Assembly: GCA_946699065.1 (NCBI GenBank)
Contig: CAMPDV010000709.1
Span: 62,001 to 126,000, forward strand
From: Loxodes magnus
Lineage: Eukaryota > Ciliophora > Karyorelictea > Loxodida > Loxodidae
Length of the DNA: 64,000 bases
Direction: 5' to 3'
The notes under the pieces are model-generated. The model was given only the letters and a program-made list of their open reading frames with translations. It searched no databases and was not told the DNA's origin. Each line of letters begins with the position of its first letter. The first letter of the stretch is position 1. Below, in pieces: positions 27,988-58,637 of the stretch. Position numbers and translations under genes: made by a program.

Positions 27988-29513
27988 AGAAAAGAAAGAA
28001 TTTCAGTTTTAAAGAGTATGCTTTGAGAAGTAATAAGTTTTTTGAAAAGTGAATAAGTAAAGTAAGAAAAGAAGAAAGAGTTTCAGTTTTAAGGAGTATT
28101 CTTTGAAAAGAAATAATTATTTAGAAAAGTGAATAAGTAAAGTAAGAAAAGAAGAAAGAATTTCAGTTTTAAAGAGTATGCTTTGAGAAGTAATAAGTTT
28201 TTTGAAAAGTGAATAAGTAAAGTAAGAAAAAAAGAAAGAATTTCAGTTTTAAGGAGTATGCTTAGAGAAGGAATAAGTATTTAGAAAAGTTGAATAAGTA
28301 AAGCAAGAAAAGAAGATAGAGTTTCAGTTTTAAGGAGTATGCTTAGAGAAGTAATAAGTATTTAGAAAAGTGAAGAAGTAAAGTAAGAAAAGATAGAGTT
28401 TCAGTTTTAAGGAGTATGCTTAGAGAAGTAATAAGTATTTAGAAAAGTGAAGAAGTAAAGTAAGAAAAGATAGAGTTTCAGTTTTAAGGAGTATGCTTAG
28501 AGAAGGAATAAGTATTTAGAAAAGTGAAGAAGTAAAGTAAGAAAAGAAGAAAGAATTTCAGTTTTAAGGAGTATGCTTAGAGAAGTAATAAGTATTTAGA
28601 AAAGTGAAGAAGTAAAGTAAGAAAAGATAGAGTTTCAGTTTTAAGGAGTATGCTTAGAGAAGGAATAAGTATTTAGAAAAGTGAAGAAGTAAAGTAAGAA
28701 AAGAAGATAGAGTTTCAGTTTTAAGGAGTATGATTTGAGAAGTAATAAGTTTTTTGAAAAGTGAATAAGAAAGTAAGAAAAGAAGATTGAGTTTAAGTTT
28801 TATTGAGTGTGCTTTGAGAAGAAATAATTATTTAGAAAAGTGAATAAGTAAAGTAAGAAAAGAAGAAAGAATTTCAGTTTTAAAGAGTATGCTTTGAGAA
28901 GTAATAAGTTTTTTGAAAAGTGAATAAGTAAAGTAAGAAAAAAAGAAAGAATTTCAGTTTTAAGGAGTATGCTTAGAGAAGGAATATGTATTTAGAAAAG
29001 TGAATAAGTAAAGTAAGAAAAGAAGATAGAGTTTCAGTTTTAAGGAGTATGCTTTGAAAAGTAATAAGTTTTTTGAAAAAGTTGAATAAGTAAAGTAAGA
29101 AAAGAAGATAGAGTTTCAGTTTTAAGGAGTATGCTTTGAGAAGTAATAAGTATTTAGAAAAAGTTGAATAAGTAAAGTAAGAAAAGAAGATAGAGTTTCA
29201 GTTTTAAGGAGTATGATTTGAGAAGAAATAAGTATTTAGAAAAGTAAATAAGTAAAGTAAGTAAAGAAGATAGAGTTTCAGTTTCAAGGAGTATGCTTTG
29301 AGAAGTAATAAGTATTTAGAAAAAGTTGAATAAGTAAAGTAAGAAAAGAAGATAGAGTTTCAGTTTTAAGGAGTATGATTTGAGAAGTAATAAGTTTTTT
29401 GAAAAGTGAATAAGTAAAGTATGAAAAGAAGATAGAGTTTCAGTTTTAAGGATTATGCTTTGAGAAGTAATAAGTATTTAGAAAAGTGAAGAAGTAAAGT
29501 AAGAAAAAAAGAA
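27988..29513. repeat. 1.5-kb block, copy 2 (offset 2,228)
   Basis: Second copy, with matching anchors at 28149, 28782 and 29449. The offset stays 2,228 bp on both sides of the swapped monomer near 29240-29300, so that monomer was exchanged without any net length change. Between the copies (27286-27987) are related monomers including two more ataagaaagtaag forms near 27805 and 27890. Confidence 0.72.
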
Positions 29514-30250
29514 AGGATTTCAGTTTTAAAGAGTAAGCTTTGAGAAGTAATAAGTATTTAGAAAAGTGAAGAAGTAAAGTAAGAAAAGAAGATAGAATTT
29601 CAGTTTTAAAGAGTATGCTTAGAGAAGGAATAAGTATTACGAAAAGTGAAGAAGTAAAGTAAAAAAAGAAGATAGAGTTTCAGTTTTAAGGAGTATGCTT
29701 TGAGAAGAAATAAGTATTTAGAAAAGTGAAGAAGTAAAGTAAGAAGAGAAGATAGAGTTTCAGTTTTAAGGAGTATGATTTGAGAAGTAATAAGTTTTTT
29801 GAAAAAGTTGAATAAGTAAAGTAAGAAAAAAAGAAAGAATTTCAGTTTTAAAGAGTATGCTTTGAGAAGTAATAAGTATTTAAAAAAGTGAAGAAGTAAA
29901 GTAAAAAAAAAGATAGAATTTCATATTTAGGTAGTATGATTTGAGAAGTAATATGTATTTAGAAAAGTGAAGAAGTAAAGTAAGAAAAGAAAAAAGAATT
30001 TCAGTTTTAAGGAGTATGATTTGAGAAAAAATAAGTATTTAGAAAAAGTTGAATAAGTAAAGTAAGAAAAGAAGATAGAATTTCAGTTTTAAGGAGTATG
30101 ATTTGAGAAGTAATAAGTTTTTTGAATAGTGAATAAGTAAAGTAAGAAAAGAAGATAGAGTTTCAGTTTTAAGGAGTGTGCTTTGAAAAGAAATAAGTTT
30201 TTTGAAAAGTGAAGAAGTAAAGTAAGAAAAGAAGATAGAGTTTCAGTTTT
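29443..30250. repeat. 0.8-kb block shared with the 5.37-kb units
   Basis: Matches about 37968-38775 (offset 8,525) and 43335-44142 (offset 13,892). Anchors: gatttcag with agtaagctt at 29516, attacgaaaag near 29638 and tcatatttaggtagtatg at 29921. It is a partial third copy of the 5.37-kb unit lying upstream of it, and starts near the end of the 1.5-kb block. Confidence 0.75.
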
Positions 30251-33200
30251 AAGGAGTATGCTTAGAGAAGTAATAGTTTTTTATAAAAGTGAAGAAGTAA
30301 AGTAAGAAAAGAAGAAAGAATTTCAGTTTTAAGGAGTATGCTTAGAGAAGTAATAAGTATTTAGAAAAAGTTGAATAAGTAAAGTAAGAAAAGAAGATAG
30401 AGTTTCAGTTTTAAGGAGTATGATTTGAGAAGTAATAAGTTTTTTGAATAGTGAATAAGTAAAGTAAGAAAAGAAGAAAGAATTTCAGTTTTAAGGAGTA
30501 TGCTTTGAGAAGAAATAAGTATTTAGAAAAAGTTGAATAAGTAAAGTAAGAAAAGAAGATAGAGTTTCAGTTTTAAGGAGTATTCTTTGAGAAGTAATAA
30601 GTATTTAGAAAAAGTTGAATAAGTAAAGTAAGAAATGAAGATAGAATTTTAGTTTTAAGGAGTATGCTTTGAGAAGAAATAAGTATTTAGAAAAAGTTGA
30701 ATAAGTAAAGTAAGAAAAGAAGATAGAGTTTCAGTTTTAAGGAGTATGATTTGAGAAGAAATAAGTATTTAGAAAAGTGAAGAAGTAAAGTAAGAAAAGA
30801 AGAAAGAATTTCAGTTTTAAGGAGTATGCTTAGAGAAGTAATAAGTATTTAGAAAAGTGAAGAAGTAAAGTAAGAAAAGATAGAGTTTCAGTTTTAAGGA
30901 GTATGCTTAGAGAAGGAATAAGTATTTAGAAAAGTGAAGAAGTAAAGTAAGAAAAAAAGAAAGAATTTCAGTTTTAAGGAGTATGCTTAGAGAAGTAATA
31001 GTTTTTTGAAAAGTGAATAAGTAAAGTAAGAAAAGAAGAAAGAATTTCAGTTTTAAAGAGTATGCTTTGAGAAGTAATAAGTATTTAGAAAAAGTTGAAT
31101 AAGTAAAGTAAGAAAAGAAGAAAGAATTTCAGTTTTAAGGAGTATGATTTGAGAAGTAATAAGTTTTTTGAATAGTGAATAAGTAAAGTAAGAAAAGAAG
31201 AAAGAATTTCAGTTTTAAGGAGTATGCTTTGAGAAGAAATAAGTATTTAGAAAAAGTTGAATAAGTAAAGTAAGAAAAGAAGATAGAGTTTCAGTTTTAA
31301 GGAGTATTCTTTGAGAAGTAATAAGTATTTAGAAAAAGTTGAATAAGTAAAGTAAGAAATGAAGATAGAATTTTAGTTTTAAGGAGTATGCTTTGAGAAG
31401 TAATAAGTATTTTGAAAAGTGAATAAGTAAAGTAAGAAAAGAAGATAGAGTTTCAGTTTTAAGGAGTATTCTTTGAAAAGAAATAATTATTTAGAAAAGT
31501 GAATAAGTAAAGTAAGAAAAGAAGAAAGAATTTCAGTTTTAAAGAGTATGCTTTGAGAAGGAATAAGTATTTAGAAAAAGTTGAATAAGTAAAGTAAGAA
31601 AAGAAGAAAGAATTTCAGTTTTAAGGAGTATGCTTTGAGAAGAAATAAGTATTTAGAAAAGTGAATAAGTAAAGTAAGAAAAAAAGAAAGAATTTCAGTT
31701 TTAAAGAGTATGCTTTGAGAAGTAATAAGTATTTAGAAAAAGTTGAATAAGTAAAGTAAGAAAAGAAGATAGAGTTTCAGTTTTAAGGAGTATGCTTTGA
31801 GAAGTAATAAGTTTTTTGAATAGTGAATAAGTAAAGTAAGAAAAGAAGAAAGAATTTCAGTTTTAAGGAGTATGCTTAGAGAAGTAATAAGTATTTAGAA
31901 AAGTGAAGAAGTAAAGTAAGAAAAGATAGAGTTTCAGTTTTAAGGAGTATGCTTAGAGAAGGAATAAGTATTTAGAAAAGTGAAGAAGTAAAGTAAGAAA
32001 AAAAGAAAGAATTTCAGTTTTAAGGAGTATGCTTTGAGAAGTAATAAGTATTTAGAAAAAGTTGAATAAGTAAAGTAAGAAAAGAAGAAAGAATTTCAGT
32101 TTTAAGGAGTATGCTTTGAGAAGAAATAAGTATTTAGAAAAGTGAATAAGTAAAGTAAGAAAAAAAGAAAGAATTTCAGTTTTAAAGAGTATGCTTTGAG
32201 AAGTAATAAGTATTTAGAAAAAGTTGAATAAGTAAAGTAAGAAAAGAAGATAGAGTTTCAGTTTTAAGGAGTATGCTTTGAGAAGGAATATGTATTTAGA
32301 AAAGTGAAGAAGTAAAGTAAGAAAAGAAGAAAGAATTTCAGTTTTAAAGAGTATGCTTTGAGAAGTAATAAGTATTTAGAAAAAGTTGAATAAGTAAAGT
32401 AAGAAAAGAAGAAAGAATTTCAGTTTTAAGGAGTATGATTTGAGAAGTAATAAGTTTTTTGAATAGTGAATAAGTAAAGTAAGAAAAGAAGAAAGAATTT
32501 CAGTTTTAAGGAGTATGCTTTGAGAAGAAATAAGTATTTAGAAAAAGTTGAATAAGTAAAGTAAGAAAAGAAGATAGAGTTTCAGTTTTAAGGAGTATGC
32601 TTTGAGAAGGAATATGTATTTAGAAAAGTGAAGAAGTAAAGTAAGAAAAGAAGAAAGAATTTCAGTTTTAAGGAGTATGCTTTGAGAAGTAATAAGTATT
32701 TAGAAAAAGTTGAATAAGTAAAGTAAGAAAAGAAGAAAGAATTTCAGTTTTAAGGAGTATGATTTGAGAAGTAATAAGTTTTTTGAATAGTGAATAAGTA
32801 AAGTAAGAAAAGAAGAAAGAATTTCAGTTTTAAGGAGTATGCTTTGAGAAGAAATAAGTATTTAGAAAAAGTTGAATAAGTAAAGTAAGAAAAGAAGATA
32901 GAGTTTCAGTTTTAAGGAGTATGATTTGAGAAGAAATAAGTATTTAGAAAAGTGAAGAAGTAAAGTAAGAAAAAAAGAAAGAATTTCAGTTTTAAGGAGT
33001 ATGCTTAGAGAAGGAATAAGTATTTAGAAAAGTGAAGAAGTAAAGTAAGAAAAAAAGAAAGAATTTCAGTTTTAAGGAGTATGCTTTGAGAAGTAATAAG
33101 TATTTAGAAAAAGTTGAATAAGTAAAGTAAGAAAAGAAGAAAGAATTTCAGTTTTAAGGAGTATGCTTTGAGAAGAAATAAGTATTTAGAAAAGTGAATA

Positions 33201-33489: not shown

Positions 33490-36400
33490 CTTTGAGAAGT
33501 AATAAGTATTTAGAAAAAGTTGAATAAGTAAAGTAAGAAAAGAAGATAGAATTTCAGTTTTAAGGAGTATGATTTGAGAAGTAATAAGTTTTTTGAAAAA
33601 GTTGAATAAGTAAAGTAAGAAAAGAAGATAGAGTTTCAGTTTTAAGGAGTATTCTTTGAGAAGTAATAAGTATTTAGAAAAAGTTGAATAAGTAAAGTAA
33701 GAAATGAAGATAGAATTTTAGTTTTAAGGAGTATGCTTAGAGAAGTAATAAGTATTTAGAAAAGTGAATAAGTAAAGTAAGAAAAGAAGATAGAGTTTCA
33801 GTTTTAAGGAGTATGATTTGAGAAGAAATAAGTATTTAGAAAAGTGAAGAAGTAAAGTAAGAAAAGAAGAAAGAATTTCAGTTTTAAGGAGTATGCTTAG
33901 AGAAGTAATAAGTATTTAGAAAAGTGAAGAAGTAAAGTAAGAAAAGATAGAGTTTCAGTTTTAAGGAGTATGCTTAGAGAAGGAATAAGTATTTAGAAAA
34001 GTGAAGAAGTAAAGTAAGAAAAAAAGAAAGAATTTCAGTTTTAAGGAGTATGCTTTGAGAAGTAATAAGTATTTAGAAAAAGTTGAATAAGTAAAGTAAG
34101 AAAAGAAGAAAGAATTTCAGTTTTAAGGAGTATGCTTTGAGAAGAAATAAGTATTTAGAAAAGTGAATAAGTAAAGTAAGAAAAAAAGAAAGAATTTCAG
34201 TTTTAAAGAGTATGCTTTGAGAAGTAATAAGTATTTAGAAAAAGTTGAATAAGTAAAGTAAGAAAAGAAGATAGAGTTTCAGTTTTAAGGAGTATGATTT
34301 GAAAAGAAATAATTATTTAGAAAAGTGAAGAAGTAAAGTAAGAAAAGAAGAAAGAATTTCAGTTTTAAAGAGTATGCTTTGAGAAGTAATAAGTATTTAG
34401 AAAAGTGAAGAAGTAAAGTAAGAAAAGATAGAGTTTCAGTTTTAAGGAGTATGCTTAGAGAAGTAATAAGTATTTAGAAAAGTGAAGAAGTAAAGTAAGA
34501 AAAAAAGAAAGAATTTCAGTTTTAAGGAGTATGCTTAGAGAAGGAATAAGTATTTAGAAAAGTTGAATAAGTAAAGTAAGAAAAGAAGAAAGAATTTCAG
34601 TTTTAAAGAGTATGCTTAGAGAAGTAATAAGTATTTAGAAAAGTGAAGAAGTAAAGTAAGAAAAGATAGAGTTTCAGTTTTAAGGAGTATGCTTAGAGAA
34701 GGAATAAGTATTTAGAAAAGTGAAGAAGTAAAGTAAGAAAAAAAGAAAGAATTTCAGTTTTAAGGAGTATGCTTTGAGAAGTAATAAGTATTTAGAAAAA
34801 GTTGAATAAGTAAAGTAAGAAAAGAAGAAAGAATTTCAGTTTTAAGGAGTATGCTTTGAGAAGAAATAAGTATTTAGAAAAGTGAATAAGTAAAGTAAGA
34901 AAAAAAGAAAGAATTTCAGTTTTAAAGAGTATGCTTTGAGAAGTAATAAGTATTTAGAAAAAGTTGAATAAGTAAAGTAAGAAAAGAAGATAGAGTTTCA
35001 GTTTTAAGGAGTATGATTTGAAAAGAAATAATTATTTAGAAAAGTGAAGAAGTAAAGTAAGAAAAGAAGAAAGAATTTCAGTTTTAAAGAGTATGCTTTG
35101 AGAAGTAATAAGTATTTAGAAAAGTGAAGAAGTAAAGTAAGAAAAGATAGAGTTTCAGTTTTAAGGAGTATGCTTAGAGAAGTAATAAGTATTTAGAAAA
35201 GTGAAGAAGTAAAGTAAGAAAAAAAGAAAGAATTTCAGTTTTAAGGAGTATGCTTAGAGAAGGAATAAGTATTTAGAAAAGTTGAATAAGTAAAGTAAGA
35301 AAAGAAGAAAGAATTTCAGTTTTAAGGAGTATGATTTGAGAAGTAATAAGTTTTTTGAATAGTGAATAAGTAAAGTAAGAAAAGAAGAAAGAATTTCAGT
35401 TTTAAGGAGTATGATTTGAGAAGTAATAAGTTTTTTGAAAAAGTTGAATAAGTAAAGTAAGAAAAGAAGATAGAGTTTCAGTTTTAAGGAGTATTCTTTG
35501 AGAAGTAATAAGTATTTAGAAAAAGTTGAATAAGTAAAGTAAGAAAAGAAGATAGAATTTCAGTTTTAAGGAGTATGATTTGAGAAGTAATAAGTTTTTT
35601 GAAAAAGTTGAATAAGTAAAGTAAGAAAAGAAGATAGAGTTTCAGTTTTAAGGAGTATTCTTTGAGAAGTAATAAGTATTTAGAAAAAGTTGAATAAGTA
35701 AAGTAAGAAATGAAGATAGAATTTTAGTTTTAAGGAGTATTCTTTGAGAAGTAATAAGTATTTAGAAAAAGTTGAATAAGTAAAGTAAGAAATGAAGATA
35801 GAATTTCAGTTTTAAAGAGTATGCTTAGAGAAGTAATAAGTATTTAGAAAAGTGAATAAGTAAAGTAAGAAAAGAAGATAGAGTTTCAGTTTTAAGGAGT
35901 ATGATTTGAGAAGAAATAAGTATTTAGAAAAGTGAAGAAGTAAAGTAAGAAAAGAAGAAAGAATTTCAGTTTTAAGGAGTATGCTTAGAGAAGTAATAAG
36001 TATTTAGAAAAGTGAAGAAGTAAAGTAAGAAAAGATAGAGTTTCAGTTTTAAGGAGTATGCTTAGAGAAGGAATAAGTATTTAGAAAAGTGAAGAAGTAA
36101 AGTAAGAAAAAAAGAAAGAATTTCAGTTTTAAGGAGTATGCTTTGAGAAGTAATAAGTATTTAGAAAAAGTTGAATAAGTAAAGTAAGAAAAGAAGAAAG
36201 AATTTCAGTTTTAAGGAGTATGCTTTGAGAAGAAATAAGTATTTAGAAAAGTGAATAAGTAAAGTAAGAAAAAAAGAAAGAATTTCAGTTTTAAAGAGTA
36301 TACTTTGAAAAGTAATAAGTATTCAGAAAAAGTTGAATAAGTAAAGTAAGAAAAGAAGATAGAGTTTCAGTTTTAAGGAGTATGATTTGAAAAGAAATAA

Positions 36401-38864
36401 TTATTTAGAAAAGTGAAGAAGTAAAGTAAGAAAAGAAGAAAGAATTTCAGTTTTAAAGAGTATGCTTTGAGAAGTAATAAGTATTTAGAAAAGTGAAGAA
36501 GTAAAGTAAGAAAAGATAGAGTTTCAGTTTTAAGGAGTATGCTTAGAGAAGTAATAAGTATTTAGAAAAGTGAAGAAGTAAAGTAAGAAAAAAAGAAAGA
36601 ATTTCAGTTTTAAGGAGTATGCTTAGAGAAGGAATAAGTATTTAGAAAAGTTGAATAAGTAAAGTAAGAAAAGAAGAAAGAATTTCAGTTTTAAGGAGTA
36701 TGCTTAGAGAAGTAATAAGTATTTAGAAAAGTGAATAAGTAAAGTATGAAAAGAAGATAGAGTTTCAGTTTTAAGGAGTATGCTTTGAGAAGTAATAAGT
36801 ATTTAGAAAAGTGAATAAGTAAAGTAAGAAAAAAAGAAAGAATTTCAGTTTTAAAGAGTATGCTTTGAGAAGTAATAAGTATTTAGAAAAAGTTGAATAA
36901 GTAAAGTAAGAAAAGAAGAAAGAATTTCAGTTTTAAAGAATATGCTTTGAGAAGTAATAAGTATTTATAAAAGTGAATAAGTAAAGTAAGAAAAAAAGAA
37001 AGAATTTCAGTTTTAAGGAGTATGCTTAGAGAAGGAATATGTATTTAGAAAAGTGAATAAGTAAAGTAAGAAAAGAAGATAGAGTTTCAGTTTTAAGGAG
37101 TATGCTTTGAGAAGTGATAAGTTTTTTGAAAAGTGAATAAGTAAAGTAAGAAAAAAGATAGAGTTTCAGTTTTAAGGAGTATGCTTAGAGAAGTAATAAG
37201 TATTTAGAAAAGTGAATAAGTAAAGTAAGAAAAGAAGATAGAATTTCAGTTTTAAGGAGTATGCTTTGAGAAGTAATAAGTATTTAAAAAAGTGAAGAAG
37301 TAAAGTAAAAAAAAAGATAGAATTTCAGTTTTAAGGAGTATGCTTTGAGAAGTAATAAGTTTTTTGAAAAGTGAATAAGTAAAGTAAGAAAAGAAGATAG
37401 AGTTTCAGTTTTAAGGAGTATGCTTTGAGAAGTAATAAGTATTTGGAAAAGTGAATAAGTAAAGTATGAAAAGAAGAAAGAATTTCAGTTTTAAGGAGTA
37501 TGATTTGAGAAGTAATAAGTTTTTTGAATAGTGAATAAGTAAAGTAAGAAAAGAAGATAGAGTTTCAGTTTTAAGGAGTGTGCTTTGAAAAGAAATAAGT
37601 TTTTTGAAAAGTGAAGAAGTAAAGTAAGAAAAGAAGATAGAGTTTCAGTTTTAATGAGTATGATTGGAGAAGTAATAAGTTTTTTGAAAAGTGAATAAGT
37701 AAAGTAAGAAAAGAAGATTGAGTTTAAGTTTTAAGGAGTGTGCTTTGAAAAGAAATAAGTTTTTTGAAAAGTGAAGAAGTAAAGTAAGAAAAGAAGATAG
37801 AGTTTCAGTTTTAAGGAGTATGCTTTGAGAAGGAATATGTATTTAGAAAAGTGAAGAAGTAAAGTAAGAAAAAAAGAAAGAATTTCAGTTTTAAGGAGTA
37901 TGCTTTGAGAAGGAATAAGTATTTAGAAAAGTGAATAAGTAAAGTAAGAAAAAAAGAAAGAATTTCAGTTTTAAGGATTATGCTTTGAGAAGTAATAAGT
38001 ATTTAGAAAAGTGAAGAAGTAAAGTAAGAAAAAAAGAAAGGATTTCAGTTTTAAAGAGTAAGCTTTGAGAAGTAATAAGTATTTAAAAAAGTGAAGAAGT
38101 AAAGTAAGAAAAGAAGATAGAATTTCAGTTTTAAAGAGTATGCTTAGAGAAGGAATAAGTATTACGAAAAGTGAAGAAGTAAAGTAAAAAAAGAAGATAG
38201 AGTTTCAGTTTTAAGGAGTATGCTTTGAGAAGAAATAAGTATTTAGAAAAGTGAAGAAGTAAAGTAAGAAGAGAAGATAGAGTTTCAGTTTTAAGGAGTA
38301 TGATTTGAGAAGTAATAAGTTTTTTGAAAAAGTTGAATAAGTAAAGTAAGAAAAAAAGAAAGAATTTCAGTTTTAAAGAGTATGCTTTGAGAAGTAATAA
38401 GTATTTAAAAAAGTGAAGAAGTAAAGTAAAAAAAAAGATAGAATTTCATATTTAGGTAGTATGATTTGAGAAGTAATATGTATTTAGAAAAGTGAAGAAG
38501 TAAAGTAAGAAAAGAAAAAAGAATTTCAGTTTTAAGGAGTATGATTTGAGAAAAAATAAGTATTTAGAAAAAGTTGAATAAGTAAAGTAAGAAAAGAAGA
38601 TAGAATTTCAGTTTTAAGGAGTATGATTTGAGAAGTAATAAGTTTTTTGAATAGTGAATAAGTAAAGTAAGAAAAGAAGATAGAGTTTCAGTTTTAAGGA
38701 GTGTGCTTTGAAAAGAAATAAGTTTTTTGAAAAGTGAAGAAGTAAAGTAAGAAAAGAAGATAGAGTTTCAGTTTTATTGAGTATGCTTAGAGAAGTAATA
38801 GTTTTTTGAAAAGTGAATAAGTAAAGTAAGAAAAGAAGAAAGAATTTCAGTTTTAAAGAGTATG
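33490..38864. repeat. 5.37-kb higher-order unit, copy 1
   Basis: About 67 monomers, immediately followed by copy 2. Offsets to copy 2 run 5,375 at 33721, 5,373 at 35011, 5,372 at 35701 and 36301, 5,368 at 36683 and 5,367 from 37081 to the end. Each step comes from one identifiable monomer-length difference. Landmarks are two gaaatgaagatag monomers near 35709 and 35790, the rare tactttgaaaag with attcagaaaaag at 36301, gaagtgataag near 37114, agtaagctt near 38058, attacgaaaag at 38161 and tcatatttaggtagtatg at 38446. The exact unit start is arbitrary within about 250 bp because several phasings fit. Confidence 0.8.
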
Positions 38865-41800
38865 CTTTGAGAAGTAATAAGTATTTAGAAAAAGTTGAAT
38901 AAGTAAAGTAAGAAAAGAAGAAAGAATTTCAGTTTTAAGGAGTATGATTTGAGAAGTAATAAGTTTTTTGAAAAAGTTGAATAAGTAAAGTAAGAAAAGA
39001 AGATAGAGTTTCAGTTTTAAGGAGTATTCTTTGAGAAGTAATAAGTATTTAGAAAAAGTTGAATAAGTAAAGTAAGAAATGAAGATAGAATTTTAGTTTT
39101 AAGGAGTATGCTTAGAGAAGTAATAAGTATTTAGAAAAGTGAATAAGTAAAGTAAGAAAAGAAGATAGAGTTTCAGTTTTAAGGAGTATGATTTGAGAAG
39201 AAATAAGTATTTAGAAAAGTGAAGAAGTAAAGTAAGAAAAGAAGAAAGAATTTCAGTTTTAAGGAGTATGCTTAGAGAAGTAATAAGTATTTAGAAAAGT
39301 GAAGAAGTAAAGTAAGAAAAGATAGAGTTTCAGTTTTAAGGAGTATGCTTAGAGAAGGAATAAGTATTTAGAAAAGTGAAGAAGTAAAGTAAGAAAAAAA
39401 GAAAGAATTTCAGTTTTAAGGAGTATGCTTTGAGAAGTAATAAGTATTTAGAAAAAGTTGAATAAGTAAAGTAAGAAAAGAAGAAAGAATTTCAGTTTTA
39501 AGGAGTATGCTTTGAGAAGAAATAAGTATTTAGAAAAGTGAATAAGTAAAGTAAGAAAAAAAGAAAGAATTTCAGTTTTAAAGAGTATGCTTTGAAAAGA
39601 AATAAGTTTTTTGAAAAGTGAAGAAGTAAAGTAAGAAAAGAAGATAGAGTTTCAGTTTTAAGGAGTATGATTTGAAAAGAAATAATTATTTAGAAAAGTG
39701 AAGAAGTAAAGTAAGAAAAGAAGAAAGAATTTCAGTTTTAAAGAGTATGCTTTGAGAAGTAATAAGTATTTAGAAAAGTGAAGAAGTAAAGTAAGAAAAG
39801 ATAGAGTTTCAGTTTTAAGGAGTATGCTTAGAGAAGTAATAAGTATTTAGAAAAGTGAAGAAGTAAAGTAAGAAAAAAAGAAAGAATTTCAGTTTTAAGG
39901 AGTATGCTTAGAGAAGGAATAAGTATTTAGAAAAGTTGAATAAGTAAAGTAAGAAAAGAAGAAAGAATTTCAGTTTTAAGGAGTATGCTTTGAGAAGTAA
40001 TAAGTATTTAGAAAAGTGAAGAAGTAAAGTAAGAAAAGATAGAGTTTCAGTTTTAAGGAGTATGCTTAGAGAAGGAATAAGTATTTAGAAAAGTGAAGAA
40101 GTAAAGTAAGAAAAAAAGAAAGAATTTCAGTTTTAAGGAGTATGCTTTGAGAAGTAATAAGTATTTAGAAAAAGTTGAATAAGTAAAGTAAGAAAAGAAG
40201 AAAGAATTTCAGTTTTAAGGAGTATGCTTTGAGAAGAAATAAGTATTTAGAAAAGTGAATAAGTAAAGTAAGAAAAAAAGAAAGAATTTCAGTTTTAAAG
40301 AGTATGCTTTGAGAAGTAATAAGTATTTAGAAAAAGTTGAATAAGTAAAGTAAGAAAAGAAGATAGAGTTTCAGTTTTAAGGAGTATGATTTGAAAAGAA
40401 ATAATTATTTAGAAAAGTGAAGAAGTAAAGTAAGAAAAGAAGAAAGAATTTCAGTTTTAAAGAGTATGCTTTGAGAAGTAATAAGTATTTAGAAAAGTGA
40501 AGAAGTAAAGTAAGAAAAGATAGAGTTTCAGTTTTAAGGAGTATGCTTAGAGAAGTAATAAGTATTTAGAAAAGTGAAGAAGTAAAGTAAGAAAAAAAGA
40601 AAGAATTTCAGTTTTAAGGAGTATGCTTAGAGAAGGAATAAGTATTTAGAAAAGTTGAATAAGTAAAGTAAGAAAAGAAGAAAGAATTTCAGTTTTAAGG
40701 AGTATGATTTGAGAAGTAATAAGTTTTTTGAATAGTGAATAAGTAAAGTAAGAAAAGAAGAAAGAATTTCAGTTTTAAGGAGTATGATTTGAGAAGTAAT
40801 AAGTTTTTTGAAAAAGTTGAATAAGTAAAGTAAGAAAAGAAGATAGAGTTTCAGTTTTAAGGAGTATGCTTAGAGAAGGAATAAGTATTTAGAAAAGTTG
40901 AATAAGTAAAGTAAGAAAAGAAGAAAGAATTTCAGTTTTAAGGAGTATGATTTGAGAAGTAATAAGTTTTTTGAAAAAGTTGAATAAGTAAAGTAAGAAA
41001 AGAAGATAGAGTTTCAGTTTTAAGGAGTATTCTTTGAGAAGTAATAAGTATTTAGAAAAAGTTGAATAAGTAAAGTAAGAAATGAAGATAGAATTTTAGT
41101 TTTAAGGAGTATTCTTTGAGAAGTAATAAGTATTTAGAAAAAGTTGAATAAGTAAAGTAAGAAATGAAGATAGAATTTCAGTTTTAAAGAGTATGCTTAG
41201 AGAAGTAATAAGTATTTAGAAAAGTGAATAAGTAAAGTAAGAAAAGAAGATAGAGTTTCAGTTTTAAGGAGTATGATTTGAGAAGAAATAAGTATTTAGA
41301 AAAGTGAAGAAGTAAAGTAAGAAAAGAAGAAAGAATTTCAGTTTTAAGGAGTATGCTTAGAGAAGTAATAAGTATTTAGAAAAGTGAAGAAGTAAAGTAA
41401 GAAAAGATAGAGTTTCAGTTTTAAGGAGTATGCTTAGAGAAGGAATAAGTATTTAGAAAAGTGAAGAAGTAAAGTAAGAAAAAAAGAAAGAATTTCAGTT
41501 TTAAGGAGTATGCTTTGAGAAGTAATAAGTATTTAGAAAAAGTTGAATAAGTAAAGTAAGAAAAGAAGAAAGAATTTCAGTTTTAAGGAGTATGCTTTGA
41601 GAAGAAATAAGTATTTAGAAAAGTGAATAAGTAAAGTAAGAAAAAAAGAAAGAATTTCAGTTTTAAAGAGTATACTTTGAAAAGTAATAAGTATTCAGAA
41701 AAAGTTGAATAAGTAAAGTAAGAAAAGAAGATAGAGTTTCAGTTTTAAGGAGTATGATTTGAAAAGAAATAATTATTTAGAAAAGTGAAGAAGTAAAGTA

Positions 41801-44231
41801 AGAAAAGAAGAAAGAATTTCAGTTTTAAAGAGTATGCTTTGAGAAGTAATAAGTATTTAGAAAAGTGAAGAAGTAAAGTAAGAAAAGATAGAGTTTCAGT
41901 TTTAAGGAGTATGCTTAGAGAAGTAATAAGTATTTAGAAAAGTGAAGAAGTAAAGTAAGAAAAAAAGAAAGAATTTCAGTTTTAAGGAGTATGCTTAGAG
42001 AAGTAATAAGTATTTAGAAAAGTGAAGAAGTAAAGTAAGAAAAGATAGAGTTTCAGTTTTAAGGAGTATGCTTAGAGAAGTAATAAGTATTTAGAAAAGT
42101 GAATAAGTAAAGTATGAAAAGAAGATAGAGTTTCAGTTTTAAGGAGTATGCTTTGAGAAGTAATAAGTATTTAGAAAAGTGAATAAGTAAAGTAAGAAAA
42201 AAAGAAAGAATTTCAGTTTTAAAGAGTATGCTTTGAGAAGTAATAAGTATTTAGAAAAGTTGAATAAGTAAAGTAAGAAAAGAAGAAAGAATTTCAGTTT
42301 TAAAGAATATGCTTTGAGAAGTAATAAGTATTTATAAAAGTGAATAAGTAAAGTAAGAAAAAAAGAAAGAATTTCAGTTTTAAGGAGTATGCTTAGAGAA
42401 GGAATATGTATTTAGAAAAGTGAATAAGTAAAGTAAGAAAAGAAGATAGAGTTTCAGTTTTAAGGAGTATGCTTTGAGAAGTGATAAGTTTTTTGAAAAG
42501 TGAATAAGTAAAGTAAGAAAAAAGATAGAGTTTCAGTTTTAAGGAGTATGCTTAGAGAAGTAATAAGTATTTAGAAAAGTGAATAAGTAAAGTAAGAAAA
42601 GAAGATAGAATTTCAGTTTTAAGGAGTATGCTTTGAGAAGTAATAAGTATTTAAAAAAGTGAAGAAGTAAAGTAAAAAAAAAGATAGAATTTCAGTTTTA
42701 AGGAGTATGCTTTGAGAAGTAATAAGTTTTTTGAAAAGTGAATAAGTAAAGTAAGAAAAGAAGATAGAGTTTCAGTTTTAAGGAGTATGCTTTGAGAAGT
42801 AATAAGTATTTGGAAAAGTGAATAAGTAAAGTATGAAAAGAAGAAAGAATTTCAGTTTTAAGGAGTATGATTTGAGAAGTAATAAGTTTTTTGAATAGTG
42901 AATAAGTAAAGTAAGAAAAGAAGATAGAGTTTCAGTTTTAAGGAGTGTGCTTTGAAAAGAAATAAGTTTTTTGAAAAGTGAAGAAGTAAAGTAAGAAAAG
43001 AAGATAGAGTTTCAGTTTTAATGAGTATGATTGGAGAAGTAATAAGTTTTTTGAAAAGTGAATAAGTAAAGTAAGAAAAGAAGATTGAGTTTAAGTTTTA
43101 AGGAGTGTGCTTTGAAAAGAAATAAGTTTTTTGAAAAGTGAAGAAGTAAAGTAAGAAAAGAAGATAGAGTTTCAGTTTTAAGGAGTATGCTTTGAGAAGG
43201 AATATGTATTTAGAAAAGTGAAGAAGTAAAGTAAGAAAAAAAGAAAGAATTTCAGTTTTAAGGAGTATGCTTTGAGAAGGAATAAGTATTTAGAAAAGTG
43301 AATAAGTAAAGTAAGAAAAAAAGAAAGAATTTCAGTTTTAAGGATTATGCTTTGAGAAGTAATAAGTATTTAGAAAAGTGAAGAAGTAAAGTAAGAAAAA
43401 AAGAAAGGATTTCAGTTTTAAAGAGTAAGCTTTGAGAAGTAATAAGTATTTAAAAAAGTGAAGAAGTAAAGTAAGAAAAGAAGATAGAATTTCAGTTTTA
43501 AAGAGTATGCTTAGAGAAGGAATAAGTATTACGAAAAGTGAAGAAGTAAAGTAAAAAAAGAAGATAGAGTTTCAGTTTTAAGGAGTATGCTTTGAGAAGA
43601 AATAAGTATTTAGAAAAGTGAAGAAGTAAAGTAAGAAGAGAAGATAGAGTTTCAGTTTTAAGGAGTATGATTTGAGAAGTAATAAGTTTTTTGAAAAAGT
43701 TGAATAAGTAAAGTAAGAAAAAAAGAAAGAATTTCAGTTTTAAAGAGTATGCTTTGAGAAGTAATAAGTATTTAAAAAAGTGAAGAAGTAAAGTAAAAAA
43801 AAAGATAGAATTTCATATTTAGGTAGTATGATTTGAGAAGTAATATGTATTTAGAAAAGTGAAGAAGTAAAGTAAGAAAAGAAAAAAGAATTTCAGTTTT
43901 AAGGAGTATGATTTGAGAAAAAATAAGTATTTAGAAAAAGTTGAATAAGTAAAGTAAGAAAAGAAGATAGAATTTCAGTTTTAAGGAGTATGATTTGAGA
44001 AGTAATAAGTTTTTTGAATAGTGAATAAGTAAAGTAAGAAAAGAAGATAGAGTTTCAGTTTTAAGGAGTGTGCTTTGAAAAGAAATAAGTTTTTTGAAAA
44101 GTGAAGAAGTAAAGTAAGAAAAGAAGATAGAGTTTCAGTTTTATTGAGTATGCTTAGAGAAGTAATAGTTTTTTGAAAAGTGAATAAGTAAAGTAAGAAA
44201 AGAAGAAAGAATTTCAGTTTTAAAGAGTATG
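38865..44231. repeat. 5.37-kb higher-order unit, copy 2
   Basis: Tandem partner of copy 1. Landmarks repeat in the same order: gaaatgaag near 41081, tactttgaaaag at 41673, gaagtgataag near 42481, agtaagctt near 43425, attacgaaaag near 43529, tcatatttaggtagtatg at 43813. Differences from copy 1 that I found are mostly whole-monomer replacements, near 39590, 39980, 40870 and 41970-42050, plus a one-base length change near 42259 and a substitution near 38920 (gaaag for gatag). Confidence 0.8.
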
Positions 44232-46025
44232 CTTTGAGAAGTAATAAGTATTTAGAAAAAGTTGAATAAGTAAAGTAAGAAAAGAAGAAAGAATTTCAGT
44301 TTTAAGGAGTATGATTTGAGAAGTAATAAGTTTTTTGAATAGTGAATAAGTAAAGTAAGAAAAGAAGAAAGAATTTCAGTTTTAAGGAGTATGATTTGAG
44401 AAGTAATAAGTTTTTTGAAAAAGTTGAATAAGTAAAGTAAGAAAAGAAGATAGAGTTTCAGTTTTAAGGAGTATTCTTTGAGAAGTAATAAGTATTTAGA
44501 AAAAGTTGAATAAGTAAAGTAAGAAATGAAGAAAGAATTTTAGTTTTAAGGAGTATGCTTTGAGAAGAAATAAGTATTTAGAAAAAGTTGAATAAGTAAA
44601 GTAAGAAAAGAAGATAGAGTTTCAGTTTTAAGGAGTATGATTTGAGAAGAAATAAGTATTTAGAAAAGTGAAGAAGTAAAGTAAGAAAAGAAGAAAGAAT
44701 TTCAGTTTTAAGGAGTATGCTTAGAGAAGTAATAAGTATTTAGAAAAGTGAAGAAGTAAAGTAAGAAAAGATAGAGTTTCAGTTTTAAGGAGTATGCTTA
44801 GAGAAGGAATAAGTATTTAGAAAAGTGAAGAAGTAAAGTAAGAAAAAAAGAAAGAATTTCAGTTTTAAGGAGTATGCTTTGAGAAGTAATAAGTATTTAG
44901 AAAAAGTTGAATAAGTAAAGCAAGAAAAGAAGAAAGAATTTCAGTTTTAAGGAGTATGCTTTGAGAAGAAATAAGTATTTAGAAAAGTGAATAAGTAAAG
45001 TAAGAAAAAAAGAAAGAATTTCAGTTTTAAAGAGTATGCTTTGAGAAGTAATAAGTATTTAGAAAAAGTTGAATAAGTAAAGTAAGAAAAGAAGATAGAG
45101 TTTCAGTTTTAAGGAGTATGCTTTGAGAAGGAATATGTATTTAGAAAAGTGAAGAAGTAAAGTAAGAAAAAAAGAAAGAATTTCAGTTTTAAGGAGTATG
45201 CTTTGAGAAGGAATAAGTATTTAGAAAAGTGAATAAGTAAAGTAAGAAAAGAAGATAGAGTATTAGTTTCAAGGAGTATGCTTAGAGAAGTAATAAGTAT
45301 TTAGAAAAGTGAAGAAGTAAAGTAAGAAAAAAAGAAAGAATTTCAGTTTTAAGGAGTATGCTTAGAGAAGGAATAAGTATTTAGAAAAGTTGAATAAGTA
45401 AAGTAAGAAAAGAAGAAAGAATTTCAGTTTTAAGGAGTATGCTTAGAGAAGTAATAAGTATTTAGAAAAGTGAATAAGTAAAGTATGAAAAGAAGATAGA
45501 GTTTCAGTTTTAAGGAGTATGCTTTGAGAAGTAATAAGTATTTAGAAAAGTGAATAAGTAAAGTAAGAAAAAAAGAAAGAATTTCAGTTTTAAAGAGTAT
45601 GCTTTGAGAAGTAATAAGTATTTAGAAAAAGTTGAATAAGTAAAGTAAGAAAAGAAGAAAGAATTTCAGTTTTAAAGAATATGCTTTGAGAAGTAATAAG
45701 TATTTATAAAAGTGAATAAGTAAAGTAAGAAAAAAAGAAAGAATTTCAGTTTTAAGGAGTATGCTTAGAGAAGGAATATGTATTTAGAAAAGTGAATAAG
45801 TAAAGTAAGAAAAGAAGATAGAGTTTCAGTTTTAAGGAGTATGCTTTGAGAAGTGATAAGTTTTTTGAAAAGTGAATAAGTAAAGTAAGAAAAAAGATAG
45901 AGTTTCAGTTTTAAGGAGTATGCTTAGAGAAGTAATAAGTATTTAGAAAAGTGAATAAGTAAAGTAAGAAAAGAAGATAGAATTTCAGTTTTAAGGAGTA
46001 TGCTTTGAGAAGTAATAAGTATTTA
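44232..46025. repeat. 5.37-kb unit, shortened copy 3
   Basis: Begins as copies 1 and 2 begin but has an extra monomer (ttttttgaatagtg) near 44330, then rejoins the unit much further along. Offset to copy 1 is 10,986 near 44218 and 8,739 near 45421, so about 2.25 kb (28 monomers) of the unit is missing between. The final part, 45421-46020, follows 36682-37270 with the gaagtgataag monomer near 45850. Near 45250 sits an unusual gatagagtattag followed by tttcaagg, a state otherwise typical of domain 1. Confidence 0.68.
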
Positions 46026-57050: not shown

Positions 57051-58637
57051 AAGAAAGAATTTCAGTTTTAAGGAGTATGATTTGAGAAGTAATAAGTTTT
57101 TTGAAAAAGTTGAATAAGTAAAGTAAGAAAAGAAGATAGAGTTTCAGTTTTAAGGAGTATTCTTTGAGAAGTAATAAGTATTTAGAAAAAGTTGAATAAG
57201 TAAAGTAAGAAATGAAGATAGAATTTTAGTTTTAAGGAGTATGCTTTGAGAAGAAATAAGTATTTAAAAAAGTTGAATAAGTAAAGTAAGAAAAGAAGAT
57301 AGAGTTTCAGTTTTAAGGAGTATGATTTGAGAAGTAATAAGTATTTAGAAAAGTGAAGAAGTAAAGTAAGAAAAGATAGAGTTTCAGTTTTAAGGAGTAT
57401 GCTTAGAGAAGTAATAAGTATTTAGAAAAGTGAAGAAGTAAAGTAAGAAAAGATAGAGTTTCAGTTTTAAGGAGTATGCTTAGAGAAGGAATAAGTATTT
57501 AGAAAAGTGAAGAAGTAAAGTAAGAAAAGATGGAGTTTCAGTTTTAAGTAGTATGCTTTGAAAAGTAATAAGTTTTTTGAAAAAGTTGAATAAGTAAAGT
57601 AAGAAAAGAAGATAGAGTTTCAGTTTTAAGGAGTATGCTTTGAGAAGTAATAAGTATTTAGAAAAAGTTGAATAAGTAAAGTAAGAAAAAAAGAAAGAAT
57701 TTCAGTTTTAAGGAGTATGATTTGAGAAGTAATAAGTATTTATAAAAGTGAAGAAGTAAAGTAAGAAAAGAAGATAGAATTTAAGTTTTAAATAGTATTC
57801 TTTGAGAAGTAATAAGTATTTATAAAAGCGAAGAAGTAAAGCAAGAAAAGAAGATAGAGTTTCAGTTTTAAGGAGTATGCTTAGAGAAGTAATAAGTATT
57901 TAGAAAAGTGAAGAAGTAAAGTAAGAAAAGATAGAGTTTCAGTTTTAAGGAGTATGCTTTGAGAAATAATAAGTATTTAGAAAAGTGAAGAAGTAAAGTA
58001 AGAAAAGATAGAGTTTCAGTTTTAAGGAGTATGCTTTGAGAAGAAATAAGTATTTAAAAAAGTTGAATAAGTAAAGTAAGAAAAGAAGATAGAGTTTCAG
58101 TTTTAAGGAGTATGCTTTGAGAAGTAATAAGTATTTAGAAAAGTGAAGAAGTAAAGTAAGAAAAGATAGAGTTTCAGTTTTAAGGAGTATGCTTAGAGAA
58201 GGAATAAGTATTTAGAAAAGTGAAGAAGTAAAGTAAGAAAAGATGGAGTTTCAGTTTTAAGGAGTATGATTTGAGAAGTAATAAGTTTTTTGAAAAAGTT
58301 GAATAAGTAAAGTAAGAAAAAAAGAAAGAATTTCAGTTTTAAGGAGTATGCTTTGAGAAGAAATAAGTATTTAGAAAAAGTTGAATAAGTAAAGTAAGAA
58401 AAGAATAAAGAATTTCAGTTTTAAGGAGTATGATTTGAGAAGTAATAAGTTTTTTGAATAGTGAATAAGTAAAGTAAGAAAAGAAGAAAGAATTTCAGTT
58501 TTAAGGAGTATGCTTAAAGAAGGAATAAGTATTTAGAAAAGTGAAGAAGTAAAGTAAGAAAAGATAGAGTTTCAGTTTTAAGGAGTATGCTTTGAGAAGT
58601 AATAAGTATTTAGAAAAGTGAATAAGTGAAGTAAGAA

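Follow-up and report, generated by a model that had tools for sequence, protein, structure and literature searches.

A probable local tandem duplication of a 67-monomer block in an 80-bp satellite array of Loxodes magnus

An array of ~80-bp satellite monomers in the genome of the ciliate Loxodes magnus contains two directly abutting units of 67 monomers each which are 99.572% identical (23 edits in monomer-phased coordinates). The best reading of this locus is a local tandem duplication within a satellite array and not a homogenised higher-order array, and its probable origin is one recent local head-to-tail duplication of the 67-monomer block by homologous exchange, real in the genome. The window, i.e., the whole stretch of DNA that was analysed, is 64 kb long and corresponds to bases 62001-126000 of the 198,219-bp contig C709; positions without a contig name are those of the window, and the array features described in it lie on the + strand. 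Unit 1 occupies 33552-38926 (5375 bp) and unit 2 38927-44293 (5367 bp). Tandem duplication in a satellite is a known and ordinary type of event, found here in a little-studied lineage.

The satellite array covers the entire window (1-64000) and is A-rich and C-poor on the + strand. TRF returned a single row for 1-64000 with a period of 80, 799.1 copies and 91% matches, and anchor decomposition gave monomer lengths of mostly 77, 79, 80, 81, and 82 bp. Scans of the rest of C709 found the same 80-bp satellite, in forward orientation up to ~184.4 kb and on the other strand beyond. The first 184 kb of the contig were cut into 2,292 monomers, 609 of which are distinct, and random monomers of C709 differ by a mean of 7.5 edits. 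Near position 58000 (~120 kb of C709) the array changes domain, with G+C rising from ~0.243 to 0.28 and monomer diversity dropping at the same point (mean distance 7.76 edits before and 5.05 after). The satellite switches strand at ~184.37 kb of C709 (C709:184372-198219, to the right of the window), and from 184.7 kb the tail of the contig matches C709:162953-176485, ~8 kb away, in reverse complement over 13.5 kb with 99.58% identity; megablast counted 17 mismatches and 39 gap openings, and a MAFFT alignment placed 25 single-base gaps within runs of at least 3. This right end of C709 looks doubtful, and reflects either an inverted duplication or an end read that is chimeric and unpolished.

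Genome-wide exact-place counts were taken over an assembly of 705,730,643 bases in 7,843 contigs. A 35-letter stretch of the monomer has 133,442 exact places (72,396 on the + strand and 61,046 on the - strand) and is present in 35.4% of the decomposed C709 monomers; if that carriage is typical, extrapolation would put the satellite at ~30 Mb of the assembly. A coding or structured RNA reading of the array was ruled out, as the window holds no open reading frame of at least 60 aa under table 11 and no Rfam match at gathering score. A phage collection gave no match to 33490-34500, the telomere-type repeats TTAGGG, TTTAGGG, and CCCCAA had zero exact matches, and a literature text search for the monomer sequence in print found no paper. 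The length of two 80-bp monomers coincides with the nucleosome spacing of 160 bp that has been reported for Loxodes magnus, a value measured with low-complexity repeats masked; this is suggestive only, and phasing of nucleosomes on the satellite is possible.

The preliminary description of this DNA had proposed two adjacent units of about 67 monomers which stay in register, and the analysis bears this out, with 99.57% identity and exact abutment. The units share 62 of their 67 monomers without any difference. A global alignment in the phase originally given, 33490-38864 against 38865-44231 (5375 and 5367 bp), has an edit distance of 24, which places the pair far above random array segments. 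In a control of 200 random non-overlapping pairs of 67-monomer segments, drawn from positions 1-58000 of the window with the 67-monomer diagonal of the locus itself excluded, mean identity was 90.81% (sd 0.46) and the maximum 91.97%. For adjacent 67-monomer pairs, one start in three along the forward contig was sampled (n = 719), and the 671 pairs which start below 27500 or above 39000, away from the locus, had a mean of 92.33% and a maximum of 95.99%. The drift in offset from 5,375 to 5,367 that had been described is exact, and occurs in the steps 5375, 5373, 5372, 5368, and 5367 at four monomers differing in length. The units also contain smaller repeats, namely a nested tandem duplication of 9 monomers (719 bp) at 33876-35313, in which 33876-34594 and 34595-35313 share eight of nine identical monomers, and an internal repeat at a shift of 26 monomers (33634-34594 with 35722-36682).

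Unit 2 is followed by a partial and more diverged third segment of 21 monomers (44294-45982). Its greater part, 44620-45982, registers with unit monomers 30-46 at a shift of 109 from unit 1, or two full units less 25 monomers; in this register 12 of 17 monomers are identical to unit 1 and 10 of 17 to unit 2. An alternative register, at a shift of 135, gives six identical monomers out of nine for 44374-45100, and from 44294 on the segment resembles unit monomers 23 onward in ambiguous register. This ambiguity arises because the unit holds the internal repeat at a shift of 26 monomers. A third copy with about 28 monomers missing had been proposed; the partial segment does exist and the slip is close to that figure, being 25-26 monomers. 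The copy is much less complete than had been implied, as its similarity stops at 45982, corresponding to unit monomer 46, the last 21 unit monomers are absent, and what remains is more diverged than units 1 and 2 are from each other. Nor does the 5.37-kb diagonal go on past unit 2, since per-monomer distances along it are at background (2-14 edits) over 38927-46000.

Analysis of the junction showed that the unit end has 4 bp in common with the left flank, and that 46 bp of the unit start recur in the right flank. If the event was a simple exchange, the point of exchange would fall in the interval 38923-38972, within ~50 bp of perfect homology and in the same monomer phase, because the flanks share these 4 + 46 bp. 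The 200-mer across the junction (38800-38999) matches the 705.7-Mb assembly exactly at a single place. Upstream of the units a partial copy of unit monomers 56-65 is present at 29438-30240 (10 monomers, one edit with respect to unit 1), and the longer stretch 29438-30965 aligns with 43330-44856, with 14 of 19 monomers identical; the adjacency found after unit 2 thus also exists upstream. As this adjacency recurs and the unit-unit junction occurs once, the junction is the derived state, and the sequence following unit 2 is the older adjacency. Exact abutment of the copies (38926/38927), together with a junction that is both unique and derived, is the pattern of a local tandem (segmental) duplication.

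The differences between the two units are not scattered, and all 23 edits sit in five of the 67 monomers (9, 14, 25, 39, and 42), where the differing columns span 30, 12, 59, 51, and 1 positions, respectively. Scattered edits would be expected to hit 19.6 monomers, and none of 5000 draws was as low as five; multi-base gaps were counted as several edits in this test. Monomer 9 of unit 2 (39570-39649) differs from unit 1 by seven edits and its state is unique on the contig. Monomer 14 of unit 1 (34595-34671) differs by two edits from its counterpart in unit 2 (39968-40044); here it is the unit 1 state which is unique on the contig, and the unit 2 state is found at six other places. The exact state of monomer 25 of unit 2 (40849-40929; five edits) occurs at six other places on the contig, and that of monomer 39 of unit 2 (41974-42050; eight edits, three of which are one 3-base gap) at 27 other places. 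In monomer 42 of unit 2 (42211-42291) a run of A is one base shorter. Overall, the four sites with more than one edit comprise eight monomer states, and six of these recur exactly at other places on the contig; monomer 9 as found in unit 2 and monomer 14 as found in unit 1 do not. At monomers 9, 39, and 42 comparison to the third segment, which retains the unit 1 state of monomer 39, places the change in unit 2 (for monomer 9 this holds in one of the two registers), and comparison to the flank upstream of unit 1 does so for monomer 25. The simplest reading of these clusters would be short-tract gene conversion, and polishing with mismapped reads could be a partial source of them. The 25 pairs with the highest scores among those segment pairs of the contig that carry edits include 11 with clustering at p < 0.01; the other 14 do not reach this level, and eight of these have only 1-3 edits.

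In the scenario which we propose, misaligned monomers underwent homologous exchange, and a single head-to-tail duplication of the 67-monomer block resulted. A possible route would be unequal sister exchange, or replication or repair re-invading the template 5.37 kb back; unequal homologous exchange and a repair process copying the block twice both fit the sequence data. A point of exchange inside the ~50 bp of perfect homology would have preserved the monomer phase. After the duplication mainly unit 2 would have acquired a few changes, mostly replacements of part of a monomer by another variant, which is the outcome expected from short tracts of gene conversion. The duplication is probably one event among many, the array being a patchwork of duplications of many sizes.

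That pieces of several kilobases are exchanged here, as had been suggested for this array, is supported by near-identical ungapped segments on the forward part of C709, of which there are 93 at a score of 16 or above, at 80 distinct shifts. None of five shuffles, in which monomer order was permuted within three domains, gave any segment at this score; with the random-pair controls, this rules out chance similarity of the units. Segment length has a median of 15 monomers and reaches 102; together the segments account for 1,396 of the 2,292 monomers (60.9%) of the forward 184 kb and for 404 of the 798 in the window. Six of the 93 are placed head to tail or nearly so and 87 otherwise. The longest pair, 86963-95108 and 100078-108229 (window coordinates extended rightward; add 62000 for C709), comprises 102 monomers with 11 edits (99.86%), and its members are non-adjacent, lying 13.1 kb apart. 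Short stretches at the array edges of three other contigs contained no duplication of at least 600 bp at 97% identity; they covered 9.1 kb on C3 and, with some flanking sequence included, 12.9 kb on C9 and 6.5 kb on C5. C3000:1-6000 consists of a related satellite with ~93-bp monomers and holds a 2.5-kb duplication at an offset of 3.5 kb with 98.1% identity. Block duplication is documented here by one contig and by this single 2.5-kb case on C3000.

The assembler could have joined two haplotypes, or two overlapping paths, of one 5.37-kb segment end to end, in which case each chromosome carries one unit. This is the alternative that survives best, and we consider it unlikely but worth serious attention. 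The assembly is an unphased Falcon assembly at 20-30x with an overlap identity of 96%, and its authors suspect that low-complexity repeats were misassembled (PMC11441545). The divergence of the units, 0.43%, is near the reported heterozygosity of ~0.6%, so that 99.57% identity falls in the allelic range (PMC11441545), and the strand switch and the 13.5-kb inverted copy rich in one-base gaps at the end of the same contig add to this concern. Against it, the junction is a clean one with 50 bp of homology, which should derive from some read. Allelic differences or read errors would be expected to be scattered, whereas here they are confined to five monomers and leave 62 free of any difference, and simple stitching would leave unexplained the 87 of 93 near-identical pairs which are not head to tail. 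On balance the locus is probably assembled correctly and the duplication probably exists in the genome.

A true long higher-order repeat (HOR), in which the 67-monomer unit would be the homogenised repeat of a longer array represented in the assembly by two copies and a fragment, is very improbable. Two full units followed in series by a partial third segment are in its favor, and the unit copies are, as in a HOR, far more alike (99.57%) than are monomers (7.5 edits per monomer). In an array of this kind the unit would recur many times in register, and here two complete copies are seen. The third segment has diverged and slipped in register, no 67-monomer diagonal exists outside the two units in 31.5-46 kb, and among the 671 adjacent pairs elsewhere on the forward contig none exceeds 96%. 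A 200-mer internal to the unit, used as a single probe of the whole assembly, was found only on C709, twice exactly and once with 1 mismatch, and the junction 200-mer is single, as noted above. The best shifts in eight stretches vary (49, 156, 41, 33, 173/67 at the locus, 88, 1, and 164), with no period shared between them; shifts 67 and 173 are prominent in the locus stretch and not in the other seven. A dimer or other short HOR was likewise rejected, as mean edit distance at shifts 1-12 had no clear period in the eight stretches. The label of a 67-mer HOR originally given to the locus is therefore not retained, given two full copies, a unique junction and a unit probe private to C709. Also very improbable is a duplication confined to somatic copies, a reading suggested by the report that Loxodes keeps repeats in a never-dividing somatic nucleus remade from the germline, in which case arrays may rearrange at each development of a somatic nucleus.

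A unit of 67 monomers had also been regarded as very long for a satellite; it is not without precedent, in view of the 58mer superHOR reported on the orangutan Y and a preliminary 84mer on chromosome 5 (PMC12428378). Primate alpha-satellite long HORs are similar to the present unit in having tens of monomers per unit and monomer types which recur within it (PMC12428378); in Loxodes magnus such recurrence takes the form of the nested 9- and 26-monomer repeats. The orangutan Y array, in contrast, holds the 58mer 67 times, with a divergence of 0.25% for the 46 canonical copies (PMC12428378), whereas the Loxodes magnus locus has two copies, built from a different monomer in a different phylum. Human centromeric arrays resemble this one in that multi-monomer gains are intermixed with older pieces (PMC11062924). 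Their turnover has been attributed to unequal crossing over, conversion and saltatory amplification, with sister-chromatid conversion proposed and simple unequal crossover found insufficient (PMC11062924). It should be noted that the human work compares many haplotypes (PMC11062924), whereas for Loxodes magnus there is one contig.

The genetic code of the host was read from its tubulin genes. Tubulin matches, with 150 of 258 candidates scored, carry in-frame TAA and TAG, and many also TGA. One copy from a tubulin gene cluster with many copies (C64:618992-934095) was read as alpha-tubulin, and reads through with in-frame TAA as Gln. At C441:147748-175110 there are nine tubulin copies at a spacing of 3,342 bp, one of which was read as beta-tubulin; in it TAA and TAG stand for Gln, and TGA is found at the Trp of the stretch NNWAKGYYTEG. 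We take this Trp to be conserved, and the beta-tubulin reading requires TGA to encode Trp. The tubulin genes thus display the karyorelict code (TAA/TAG = Gln, TGA = Trp), which is the code reported for Loxodes magnus (PMC11441545). The same source gives a MAC assembly of 706 Mbp that includes 231 Mbp of low-complexity tandem repeat; it describes the repeats of this species in bulk amounts, and the terms "satellite" and "centromer-" are absent from its main text (PMC11441545). The MIC assembly is 848 Mbp, and HiFi reads of both MAC and MIC are deposited as ENA PRJEB55123 (PMC11441545).

As a local duplication, the locus would be a clean case of satellite change in a ciliate, with duplication of a block first and replacement at the scale of monomers later, in a host belonging to the ciliates reported to be without extensive somatic genome editing. 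Should the two units turn out to be an assembly join, they would be a useful warning for work on satellite DNA assembled without phasing. Purified libraries are available for both germline and soma of Loxodes magnus (PMC11441545), and so whether the duplication arose in one or the other can be addressed directly; were it somatic only, satellite exchange would show up within a single organism as a difference in structure between soma and germline.
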